NCBI GenBank assembly: GCA_901457705.2
Contig: LR590083.2
Location: 2,170,597-2,234,596 of the forward strand
Source: Beijerinckiaceae bacterium RH AL1
GTDB taxonomy: Bacteria; Pseudomonadota; Alphaproteobacteria; Rhizobiales; Beijerinckiaceae
Direction of reading: 5' to 3'
Length of the DNA stretch: 64,000 nt
A program made the translations under genes and the position numbers. Below, piece by piece: positions 2,793-7,890 of the stretch. Every line of letters begins with the position of its first letter. The first letter of the stretch is position 1. A model generated the notes under the pieces. That model was not told where the DNA came from and ran no database searches. It saw nothing but the letters and a program-made list of their open reading frames with translations.

Positions 2793-2883
2793 GCCGAGCG
2801 GCATAGCACGATGCTTCCGATTCACGGTTGATTCCGGTCCGGAAAAGGACTACCGACGCAACTTCACGAGGTTACACGTACCG

Positions 2884-2934
2884 ATGGCGCAGAGCCTTAT
2901 CGTAGATCGAGCGTCACCGACGGGACGAAGCTAA
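2884..2934 (+). CDS. putative ilvB leader peptide (Leu-Ile-Val codons)
   Basis: A 16-codon frame reads MAQSLIVDRASPTGRS, with adjacent Leu (CTT), Ile (ATC) and Val (GTA) codons at 2896-2904, the three end products of the pathway encoded downstream. The stop codon lies at the 5' arm of an inverted repeat (2932-2938 pairs with 2958-2964), and a strong intrinsic terminator follows before ilvB. A weak GAGGT ribosome site ends 11 bases upstream of the ATG. This is the layout of a translational attenuation leader. Ribosome-mediated attenuation of ilv operons is known in enterobacteria and has been reported for Caulobacter ilvBN. The peptide itself is a prediction. Confidence 0.6.
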   Translation: MAQSLIVDRASPTGRS

Positions 2935-2967
2935 GCGCTTCGACGAGCCCGCCGCTGGCGCTTACCC

Positions 2968-2989
2968 AAGGCCCTCAGGGGCCTTTTTT
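2968..2989 (+). terminator. intrinsic terminator upstream of ilvB (probable attenuator)
   Basis: AAGGCCC (2968-2974) pairs perfectly with GGGCCTT (2979-2985) across a TCAG loop, and six Ts run from 2984 to 2989. It faces the plus strand, yet the only upstream plus-strand candidate is the 16-codon leader peptide; recO lies on the other strand. It ends 38 bases before the ilvB start. A terminator in this position makes sense as an attenuator. I could not define an unambiguous antiterminator: GCCTT at 2894-2898 can pair with AAGGC at 2968-2972, but that lies in the leader codons. Confidence 0.75.
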
Positions 2990-3027: not shown

Positions 3028-4812
3028 ATGTCCGAGACCGCCGAGACCAAGCCCCGCGAGATGACCGGCGCGCAGATGGTCGTCCAGGCTCTGAAGGACC
3101 AGGGCGTCACCACCCTCTTCGGCTATCCCGGCGGCGCGGTGCTCCCGATCTACGATTCGCTCTACGGGCAGAACGACATCAAGCACGTGCTGGTCCGCCA
3201 CGAGCAGGGCGCGGCGCACGCGGCCGAGGGGTACGCGCGCTCCTCCGGCAAGGTCGGCGTGCTGCTGGTGACGTCGGGCCCCGGCGCGACAAACGCGATC
3301 ACCGGGCTGACCGATGCGCTGCTCGACTCGATCCCGCTCGTCTGCATCACCGGCCAGGTGCCGACGCACCTCATCGGCTCGGACGCCTTCCAGGAATGCG
3401 ACACGGTCGGCATCACCCGCCACTGCACCAAGCACAACTACTTGGTCCGCTCGGTCAAGGACTTGCCGCGTATTCTTCATGAGGCGTTCTATGTTGCGAG
3501 CCACGGGCGCCCCGGCCCGGTCGTCGTCGACATCCCGAAGGACGTGCAGTTCGCGCGCGGCGCCTACGACGCAACCGTGACGACCGAGCACAAGACCTAT
3601 CGCCCGCAGCTCGAGGCCGACCCCGTCCGCATCGAGCAGGCGGTGGCGATGATGGCCGCCGCCCGCAGGCCCGTCCTCTACACCGGCGGCGGCGTCATCA
3701 ACTCGGGCCCGGAAGCCTCGAAGCTGCTCCGCGAGCTGGTCGAGCTGACCGGCTTCCCGATCACCTCGACGCTGATGGGCCTCGGCGCCTATCCCGCGAC
3801 GGGCAAGAACTGGCTCGGCATGCTCGGCATGCACGGCACCTACGAAGCCAATCACGCGATGCACGATTGCGACGTGATGGTCTGCATCGGCGCGCGCTTC
3901 GACGACCGCATTACCGGCCGGCTCGACGCCTTCTCGCCCGGCTCGCGCAAGATCCACATCGACATCGACCCCTCCTCGATCAACAAGATCGTCAAGGCGG
4001 ACGTGCCGATCATCGCCGACTGCGCGCACGCGTTGCGGGCGATGATCGAGACATGGAAGGTGCGCAAGGCGAAGGTCGACGCGTCGAGCCTGCGCGACTG
4101 GTGGCGTGCGATCGAGACGTGGCGCGGCCGCAAGTCGCTGGGGTTCAAGCCGTCCAAGGACACGATCAAGCCGCAGCACGCCGTGCAGCGCCTCTACGAG
4201 CTGACCAAGGACCGCGACACCTACATCACGACCGAGGTCGGCCAGCACCAGATGTGGGCGGCGCAGCACTACGGCTTCGACGAGCCGAACCGCTGGATGA
4301 CGTCGGGCGGCCTCGGCACGATGGGCTACGGCCTGCCGGCGGCGATCGGCGTGCAGATGGCGCATCCCGATGCGCTGGTCATCGATGTCGCCGGCGAGGG
4401 CTCGATCCTGATGAACATGCAGGAGATGTCGACGGCGGCGCAGTACCGTCTGCCGATCAAGATCTTCATCTTGAACAACGAGTATCTCGGGATGGTCCGC
4501 CAGTGGCAGGAGCTGCTGCACGAGAAGCGCTACTCGGAGAGCTACTCGCACTCCCTGCCCGACTTCGTGAAGCTCGCCGAGGCCTACGGCGCCCACGGCA
4601 TCCGCGTGTCAGACCCAGCCGACCTCGACACGGCGATCAAGGCGATGATCGACCATCCCGGCGCGGTGATCGTCGACTGCCTCGTCGACAAGATGGAGAA
4701 CTGCTTCCCGATGATCCCGTCGGGCAAGGCCCACAACGAGATGATCCTTGCGGACGACGCCGACCTCGAGCTCGAGGCCGTCATCGACGCCAAGGGCCGC
4801 GAGCTGGTGTAG
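3028..4812 (+). CDS. ilvB: acetolactate synthase large (catalytic) subunit
   Basis: This 594-residue ThDP enzyme condenses two pyruvates to acetolactate, or pyruvate with 2-oxobutyrate, the first common step of valine, leucine and isoleucine synthesis. FGYPGGAVLPIYD (about 31-43) and RHEQGAAHAAEGYAR, with the ThDP-activating Glu59, mark the N-terminal pyrimidine-binding domain. The C-terminal pyrophosphate-binding motif runs from GEGSILMNMQEMSTA to ILNN; it has Glu where many ThDP enzymes have Asp (GDG). MVRQWQELLH is the usual C-terminal signature. It needs the small subunit IlvN, encoded 173 bases downstream across a palindromic repeat. Probable attenuation control lies upstream (2884-2989). 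Confidence 0.97.
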   Translation: MSETAETKPREMTGAQMVVQALKDQGVTTLFGYPGGAVLPIYDSLYGQNDIKHVLVRHEQGAAHAAEGYARSSGKVGVLLVTSGPGATNAITGLTDALLDSIPLVCITGQVPTHLIGSDAFQECDTVGITRHCTKHNYLVRSVKDLPRILHEAFYVASHGRPGPVVVDIPKDVQFARGAYDATVTTEHKTYRPQLEADPVRIEQAVAMMAAARRPVLYTGGGVINSGPEASKLLRELVELTGFPITSTLMGLGAYPATGKNWLGMLGMHGTYEANHAMHDCDVMVCIGARFDDRITGRLDAFSPGSRKIHIDIDPSSINKIVKADVPIIADCAHALRAMIETWKVRKAKVDASSLRDWWRAIETWRGRKSLGFKPSKDTIKPQHAVQRLYELTKDRDTYITTEVGQHQMWAAQHYGFDEPNRWMTSGGLGTMGYGLPAAIGVQMAHPDALVIDVAGEGSILMNMQEMSTAAQYRLPIKIFILNNEYLGMVRQWQELLHEKRYSESYSHSLPDFVKLAEAYGAHGIRVSDPADLDTAIKAMIDHPGAVIVDCLVDKMENCFPMIPSGKAHNEMILADDADLELEAVIDAKGRELV

Positions 4813-4818
4813 CGCTTT

Positions 4819-4964
4819 CCTTCTCCCGCTTGCGGGAGAAGGTGGCCCCGCAAAGCGGGGCCGGATGAGGGTCTCGCCGCCTCTAGTCCGACAAACGAGC
4901 AAGCGGCGAGGCCCTCATCCGACCCGACTTCGTCGGGCCACCTTCTCCCGCAAGCAGGAGAAGG
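4819..4964 (+). repeat. palindromic REP/MITE-like intergenic element between ilvB and ilvN
   Basis: About 146 bases form nested inverted repeats. The outer arms CCTTCTCCCGC...GGGAGAAGG (4819-4842) recur at 4941-4964. Inside, a GC-rich hairpin (ggccccgcaaagcggggcc, about 4843-4862) faces its counterpart near 4921-4940. The innermost GGATGAGGGTCTCGCCGC is mirrored by GCGGCGAGGCCCTCATCC, so the whole unit can fold back on itself. CTTCTCCCGC / GGATGAGGG elements are, from memory, widespread intergenic repeats in Hyphomicrobiales. A degraded fragment may remain at 17289-17310. Inserted inside an operon, it may affect ilvN expression or mRNA stability. Confidence 0.8.
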
Positions 4965-4985
4965 GTTCAACCGAGCATCGACCCC

Positions 4986-5543
4986 ATGAACGCCCCCAGC
5001 CCGCAGCCGCCCTCCCCGTACACCGCGCCGCCTAAAGAGCGCGCGCAGGTCACCCACACGCTTTCCGTCCTCGTCGACAACGAGCCCGGCGTCCTTGCCC
5101 GGGTCGTCGGCCTCTACTCGGGGCGGGGCTACAACATCGCGAGCCTTACGGTCGCCGAGGTGGCGCATGCCGATCACCTCTCGCGGATCACGATCGTCAC
5201 GTCGGGCACGCTCGAGGACATCGAGCAGATCACGCTGCAGCTCGACCGGCTCGTCCCGGTGCATTCGGTCACCGACCTGACGCTGCGCGGCGACTCCGTC
5301 GAGCGCGAGCTGGCGATGATCAAGGTCGCGGGTCGCGGGGAGGACCGGCAGGAAGCGCTGCGTCTCGCGGAGGCGTTCCGCGGCCGCGTCGTCGACGCCT
5401 CGACCGACAGCTTCATCTTCGAGATGACCGGCGCGGCCTCGAAGATCGATCATTTCGTCGATCTCATGCGACCGATCGGGCTCGTCGAGGTGTCGCGCAC
5501 CGGCGTCGCCGCGATCACGCGCGGCCCGGCGAAGATGCCGTAG
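4986..5543 (+). CDS. ilvN: acetolactate synthase small (regulatory) subunit
   Basis: This 185-residue protein is the regulatory partner of IlvB, raising its activity and giving feedback inhibition by valine. An N-terminal ACT domain starts at about residue 23 (HTLSVLVDNEPGVLARVVGLYSGRGYNI). A second regulatory domain follows, with KVAGRGEDRQEALRLAEAFRGRVVD and a C-terminal IGLVEVSRTGVAAITRG. There is a 20-residue Pro-rich N-terminal tail typical of Hyphomicrobiales proteins. The ATG at 4986 has no strong ribosome site. It is cotranscribed with ilvB if transcription passes the palindromic repeat. A terminator-like hairpin follows at 5553. Confidence 0.95.
   Translation: MNAPSPQPPSPYTAPPKERAQVTHTLSVLVDNEPGVLARVVGLYSGRGYNIASLTVAEVAHADHLSRITIVTSGTLEDIEQITLQLDRLVPVHSVTDLTLRGDSVERELAMIKVAGRGEDRQEALRLAEAFRGRVVDASTDSFIFEMTGAASKIDHFVDLMRPIGLVEVSRTGVAAITRGPAKMP

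Positions 5544-6792: not shown

Positions 6793-7890
<1,098 letters not shown>

Follow-up and report, generated by a model that had tools for sequence, protein, structure and literature searches.

A probable ribosome-read attenuator ahead of ilvB in Beijerinckiaceae bacterium RH AL1 and its relatives, with no shared antiterminator detectable

The RNA encoded just upstream of ilvB in Beijerinckiaceae bacterium RH AL1 is probably an attenuator of the ilvB(N) genes that is read by a translating ribosome, a reading to which we assign a probability of about 0.7, and what is new is that, as far as folding energies and covariation can predict, no shared antiterminator is detectable across 112 ilvB leaders. 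The features discussed below lie in a window, by which we mean the whole 64,000-nucleotide stretch of DNA that was analysed, and are the following:

2828 to 2856, plus strand: promoter-like site, TTGATT (2828-2833), a 17 nt spacer and TACCGA (2851-2856), 8 of 12 positions
2884 to 2934, plus strand: leader ORF of 16 codons and TAA, MAQSLIVDRASPTGRS, with homologous leaders at 52 of 61 ilvB loci in 60 genomes
2896 to 2904, plus strand: control codons CTT ATC GTA (Leu Ile Val)
2909 to 2963, plus strand: three-part hairpin P1-P3, from folding and covariation
2909 to 2916 with 2956 to 2963 (P1), 2918 to 2919 with 2953 to 2954 and 2921 to 2924 with 2948 to 2951 (P2), 2926 to 2931 with 2937 to 2942 (P3), plus strand: parts of that hairpin, from the fold
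2968 to 2989, plus strand: intrinsic terminator, AAGGCCC (2968-2974), loop TCAG (2975-2978), GGGCCTT (2979-2985) and T run (2984-2989)
3028 to 4812, plus strand: ilvB, acetolactate synthase large subunit (NF006581, 1114.6 bits, cut-off 974)
4986 to 5543, plus strand: ilvN, acetolactate synthase small subunit (NF008864, 217.8 bits, cut-off 119)
6871 to 7890, plus strand: ilvC, ketol-acid reductoisomerase (NF004017, 576 bits, cut-off 336)

Upstream of the leader lies recO, which is encoded divergently on the other (minus) strand and was identified by an NCBIfam model above its cut-off, and 38 bases separate the end of the terminator from ilvB. Among the relatives listed, the closest named matches to IlvB were in an uncultured Beijerinckiaceae genome (82% identity) and, at 79% identity each, in a genome titled Rhizobium sp. 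and in Methylocella tundrae. The gap between ilvB and ilvN is largely occupied by a 62-nt inverted repeat (4819-4964; arms 4819-4880 and 4903-4964, 87% complementary), and the window contains no more than two copies of any 14-mer of 4813-4985.

The leader (2884-2934) reads ATG GCG CAG AGC CTT ATC GTA GAT CGA GCG TCA CCG ACG GGA CGA AGC TAA, which confirms the frame that a preliminary description of this DNA had proposed, with its ATG at 2884, its TAA at 2932-2934 and adjacent Leu, Ile and Val codons at 2896-2904. The same description had named conservation of these codons in relatives as a check, and they are conserved: the GTA columns are invariant in 33 aligned leaders, 109 of the 112 non-redundant leaders have GTA in frame (of the other three, L056 and L061 are of the Atu_C8 type discussed below and have GTG), and I, L and V are all present in 105/112. 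It had also regarded so compact a Leu-Ile-Val sensor as unusual, which does not hold for this lineage, where I/L/V runs of 3–6 codons (LIV, ILIV, ILVV) are common. Within a set of 127 leaders GTA makes up 156 of the 194 Val control codons and CTG only 5 of the 162 Leu control codons; at the same 30 loci, GTA accounts for 34/39 Val codons in the leaders vs 23/1272 in ilvB, and in the 27 long ORFs of the window, which served as background, GTA represents 1.1% of 928 Val codons and CTG 41% of 1285 Leu codons. The control codons of ilvB leaders are conserved and often rare, and their rarity may make the sensor slow or tRNA-specific. The part of the peptide after the I/L/V run differs widely between families, and an arrest peptide was rejected on this ground. 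A frameshift at hungry codons into the terminator was also tried and rejected; the other two frames run without a stop beyond the terminator 5' arm in 84/112 and 75/112 leaders, and mononucleotide shuffles, made for the first of these frames only (84/112), gave an expectation of 68.9, i.e., a mild excess.

IlvB was found in 60/60 genomes, that of the window included, and a leader that has an I/L/V run and is followed by hairpin and terminator precedes ilvB at 52/61 loci in 51/60 genomes, among them 36/36 genomes of the same family (own included). The nine genomes that have no such leader (L035, L040, L042, L043, L045, L046, L048, L050 and L058) gave no match to a covariance model either. This model, R1, was built from 33 leaders and hits 206/397 genomes of the order with an E-value of 0.01 or better; its single hit in the window's genome is the ilvB leader (80.9 bits, 7.8e-13, the window copy being part of the model alignment), which fits the family definition of an I/L/V run, P1-P3 around the stop codon and a terminator 0–7 nt further on. 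R1 matched 89 of the 90 loci having a leader, missing L060, though this locus was counted as leader-bearing, and 89 of 90 loci drawn from R1 hits showed a leader plus terminator, the exception, L115, having a shorter T tail. A similar rule applied to named loci identified 59/80, including Methylocella, Methylobacterium, Bosea, Sinorhizobium, Mesorhizobium and Bradyrhizobium. In other orders of the class a convincing leader was present at 1 of 68 loci (L339), four more machine hits being judged spurious by eye. In several of these orders (among loci L314-L336) ilvB comes after an apparent miaA 3' end and lacks an I/L/V leader. The 112 leaders are the non-redundant subset (similarity <0.9) of the 127, with 15 duplicate or nearly identical loci left out beforehand; many were obtained via R1 hits, so that the sample is not unbiased, and the conservation counts come partly from script output read by eye. 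One genome has two ilvB-type leaders ~2.7 kb apart (L137 and L138) with the identical peptide MLLVVLRWRTVAEVSS, and there are two matches each in three further genomes of its family (f11).

The hairpin between the control codons and the terminator is conserved, and its P1 and P2 covary. In a sequence-only alignment of 33 leaders, pairing across the ten P1 and P2 pairs stood at 94.5%, with 35 double-change cells where shuffles gave 12.9, and when slid out of register the two sides were 35–52% paired with 0–12 double-change cells. The complementarity of P1 to its own partner, compared with the partners from other genomes, had a z of 24 (0/2000 permutations), in a test whose anchors use no folding, the 5' window being placed from the end of the I/L/V run and the 3' window from the terminator. 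Over the 112 leaders P1 starts 0–6 nt (median 4) past the last control codon and ends 0–7 nt (median 4) short of the terminator, in folds made between the control codons and the terminator, outside which P1 by construction cannot fall. The leader stop codon lies within the hairpin in 112/112 leaders, in the apical loop in the case of the window, at a distance of 25–47 nt (median 33) from the terminator. The inverted repeat of the preliminary description is present as claimed, TAAGCGC (2932-2938) being perfectly complementary to GCGCTTA (2958-2964), but it is not conserved: the two stretches are fully complementary in one of the 112 leaders, that of the window, and this stem was rejected as the regulatory hairpin. 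The favoured, conserved stem is 2909-2916/2956-2963.

The perfect intrinsic terminator at 2968-2989 was likewise described correctly and has a form common to the relatives; a terminator scan found 1 vs 0.4 expected by chance. A similar promoter-like site stands 5' of the leader start in 108/112 leaders, where shuffles predict 2.8; the pattern used was picked after seeing the relatives, and a generic sigma-70 scan found no promoter at the window's leader. We found no sign of coupling of the pyrBI type, as leader ORF and terminator overlap in none of the 112 leaders and the stop stands 25–47 nt before the terminator, nor of a riboswitch or T-box, for which there was no Rfam match at gathering score, the window holding only a tRNA match.

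Comparison with Rfam links the leader to an entry labelled as a small RNA, Atu_C8 (RF02502). The window matches this model end-to-end (model positions 1-122) with 24.5 bits (E-values 0.0042–0.0074), below the gathering score of 50, and it has the same hairpin-terminator layout in the same place upstream of ilvB as the strong members. At 10/20 loci scanned, RF02502 scored at or above gathering upstream of ilvB; these included nine loci at 95–120 bits (e.g., in Rhizobium, Sinorhizobium, Mesorhizobium, Aminobacter and Aquamicrobium) and Devosia L290 at 52.2. With relaxed thresholds 8/10 loci matched, with sub-gathering scores in Microvirga (41.3), Bradyrhizobium (38.8), and Chelatococcus and L028 (36.5), while Methylocella L236 and Methylocystis L239 gave no match at an E-value of 0.5. 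The Atu_C8 consensus reads AUG AUU AUU CUU GUG GUG ... UAA (MIILVV...), i.e., GUG where the window, with CTT ATC GTA, has GUA. Based on the strong matches of the Rhizobium, Sinorhizobium and Mesorhizobium type, the intermediates, and the weak end-to-end match of the window, we conclude that the Atu_C8 entry and the ilvB leader are one family, the window copy being a divergent relative of Atu_C8.

A leader with a terminator ahead of ilvB is itself already in print for alpha-proteobacteria, to judge from passages of several papers. Corbino 2005 names an alpha-proteobacterial ilvB leader peptide as previously described, citing Vitreschak 2004 (PMC1273637), and a prediction of small RNAs in S. meliloti lists an ilvIH cis element from the same Vitreschak 2004 source (PMC2573895). 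For Caulobacter crescentus, a passage describes ilvBN attenuation with RNA-seq and ribosome profiling, citing Tarleton 1994, and this ilvBN/ilvL leader has, by that description and like the window, a coding sequence in which Ile and Val codons stand in tandem, and a terminator (PMC4117421). The word "ilv" is absent from the main text of a study that applied ribosome profiling to small proteins of S. meliloti (PMC10117765). Our literature search covered few subscription papers and met with no statement of a link between Atu_C8 and ilvB or of a missing antiterminator, which is weak evidence of novelty.

Attenuation via mutually exclusive RNA structures is the textbook model, and the E. coli thr, leu, trp, his, ilvGMEDA and phe attenuators have, as in the window, a leader ORF with codons for the product followed by an intrinsic terminator. 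Of the elements of a classical attenuator, the leader ORF and the terminator were both found in the ilvB leaders, and an antiterminator was not. Our measure in the search was the free-energy cost of holding the terminator 5' arm unpaired just before the 3' arm is synthesized, calculated with the RNA behind the ribosome's leading edge removed (fixed footprint of 13 nt) and expressed in nearest-neighbour energies, i.e., without kinetics or tertiary structure. For the window leader the cost was 3.5, 1.1 and 0.1 kcal/mol with the ribosome on Val, Ile and Leu, respectively, and 3.0 kcal/mol at the stop; the window and 111 relatives had mean costs of 1.6 stalled, 3.3 at the stop and 3.3 without a ribosome. 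The six E. coli attenuators, used as a positive control, reached at least 7 kcal/mol at 43/48 control-codon positions (maxima 8.2–15.3), unlike the ilvB leaders, which did so at only 8/445 positions, in seven of the 112 leaders, all seven on the last control codon. The trpE leaders of other families in the same order, a matched control, had a mean of 14.2 stalled vs 4.7 at the stop, and 13/13 analysable leaders were positive. These came from a widened scan (13 of 18 loci, some of the 13 being mutually close relatives) after a first pass had yielded 1/30; of the other five loci, four have leaders without a recognised terminator and one has no leader. The trpE leaders (L158, L218-L233) carry runs of 2–4 Trp codons. 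The leuA genes, considered as a second control from the lineage, had a leader and terminator at 0/30 loci.

The costs were also compared with those of dinucleotide shuffles of the upstream stretch. With the ribosome on the last control codon the ilvB leaders averaged 3.2 vs 4.3 kcal/mol in shuffles and were above them in 25/112, and on the first control codon 0.8 vs 4.3, above in 0/112, whereas the trpE leaders had 14.6 vs 7.0 on the last Trp codon, above in 13/13, and were above on the first in 12/13. In the E. coli set, where the comparison comprised the first and last control codons only, thr, trp and phe were above shuffles at both, and leu, his and ilv at the first alone, by a narrow margin in the case of his (4.7 vs 3.7). 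A scan over positions of the leading edge gave no mean above ~4.5 kcal/mol, and a covariation scan of the 112 leaders, starting 40 nt upstream of where the I/L/V run ends, identified no covarying partner of either terminator arm, nested or crossing, the best z being 2.8 among several hundred offsets, which we took as noise. One candidate, pairing of the last leader codons with the terminator 5' arm, was rejected: it beats shuffled arms, an effect we attribute to G- and C-richness, but not arms swapped between genomes (own -9.54 vs swapped -9.34 kcal/mol; 246/2000 permutations as good). Taken over the whole ilvB leader family, the predictions give no segment of the leader that would tie up the terminator 5' arm while the ribosome is stalled, and the preliminary remark that the antiterminator was not obvious can be extended to the family; P1, in these calculations, tends rather to keep the terminator arm free.

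A few leaders depart from this pattern. L029 (MRKLIIVEVRW) reached 10.8 and 7.2 kcal/mol on its last two control codons vs 1.7 at the stop, and the two Bosea leaders L243 and L247, with an almost identical peptide (MRKLILVEVRW), are similar; all three stand apart from the other leaders of the family, with 7–11 kcal/mol at both of these codons and 1.6–1.7 at the stop. The stalled mean exceeded the value at the stop by more than 2 kcal/mol in 1/112 leaders and at 3/59 named loci (L243, L247 and Bradyrhizobium L304). Individual lineages may, on these predictions, have an antiterminator. The leader of L339, from outside the order (MHRLVVIVGKWRMGR), had 8.3–9.7 kcal/mol on four of its five control codons vs 1.9 at the stop, and its hairpin directly adjoins the terminator and, as judged by eye, can be lengthened to include the first terminator bases; it is perhaps a classical relative, and as a single case it is not used here as support.

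If the RNA is such an attenuator, transcription would start upstream of 2884, and a ribosome translating the leader would sense charged Leu-, Ile- and Val-tRNA at CTT ATC GTA. With these tRNAs plentiful, the ribosome would reach the stop codon in the hairpin, the terminator would form and transcription would end before ilvB; with charged tRNA short, the ribosome would stall and the polymerase would read through into ilvB. We infer both the sign of this response to the charged-tRNA level and that the ribosome acts via the P1-P3 hairpin. For the last step we tentatively prefer an unproven explanation, in which the hairpin, left intact by a stalled ribosome, would hinder the terminator that it abuts, and would be removed once a ribosome arrives at the stop codon. 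The position of the stop codon in the loop and the contact with the terminator fit P1-P3 as the read-through form. Against this, most of the P1 5' arm lies under a ribosome positioned at the last control codon. This argues against a read-through hairpin in Val starvation, even though no control codon is better conserved than GTA, and nearest-neighbour energies show no mutual exclusion between adjacent hairpins. It is unlikely that a ribosome at the leader stop represses the terminator directly, since in the system of one study, as given in a passage of it, termination is maximal once the distance from stop to terminator exceeds ~27 nt (PMC4824070), and here it is 25–47 nt with a median of 33.

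The covered P1 arm is also the starting point of the alternative closest to the textbook, in which P1 would be the protecting helix (1:2) of classical attenuation and the strand it frees would mispair with the terminator 5' arm as a weak or degenerate antiterminator. With P1 beginning 0–6 nt past the last control codon, a ribosome there covers it, masking P1 raises the cost of the terminator arm from ~0.5–0.9 to 3–4 kcal/mol, that arm pairs best with the codons just before the stop (z up to 2.8), and seven leaders attain at least 7 kcal/mol with the ribosome on the last control codon (L142 with 13.4, L029 with 10.8), Bosea L243 and L247 behaving likewise. Yet in most of the family, once a last-codon ribosome has opened P1, there is nothing specific for the terminator arm to pair with: the last-codon mean of 3.2 kcal/mol is below that of shuffles and equals the 3.3 at the stop, where trpE leaders of the order have 14.6, the best pairing is no better than that with another genome's arm, and a stalled mean more than 2 above the stop value is confined to the 1/112 leaders and 3/59 named loci given above. 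We regard this alternative as doubtful. The retention of hairpin, spacing and terminator, with no conserved helix to the terminator arms in 112 leaders, would be consistent with a switch in which a tertiary contact, a protein or a trans-acting RNA, all invisible to our calculations, acted at the hairpin-terminator junction; we know of no candidate for such a factor, and consider this explanation unlikely.

Two further readings concern the element as such. The terminated leader could chiefly be a small RNA or a source of a trans-acting peptide, given that Rfam labels the Rhizobiaceae form (Atu_C8) an sRNA and that a Sinorhizobium Trp leader peptide acts in trans, according to a passage of PMC7298713; however, the element lies 5' of ilvB, its codons match exactly the products of that pathway, and the remaining peptide is very variable between families, and a chiefly trans-acting role seems improbable to us. 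That a chance ORF happens to precede an ordinary terminator might be entertained from the single-sequence statistics alone, which are modest (the fold of the window leader has a z of -2.44, with 4/200 shuffles equally good), but it is refuted by conservation, codon bias and covariation also speak against it, and its probability is negligible; it is because of the conservation that we hold the element to be real.

Returning to the explanation we prefer, the Hyphomicrobiales may, tentatively, possess a class of attenuator in which a ribosome-removable hairpin placed against the terminator sets read-through without a dedicated antiterminator or mutually exclusive pairing. The rare Val codon GTA is nearly fixed as a control codon in the family, and the Rfam sRNA entry Atu_C8 would be explained as a terminated ilvB leader. 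A widespread attenuator without a shared antiterminator would mean that the position of the ribosome controls intrinsic termination by another route, and the ilvB leader family would offer many natural variants for testing ribosome control of termination.
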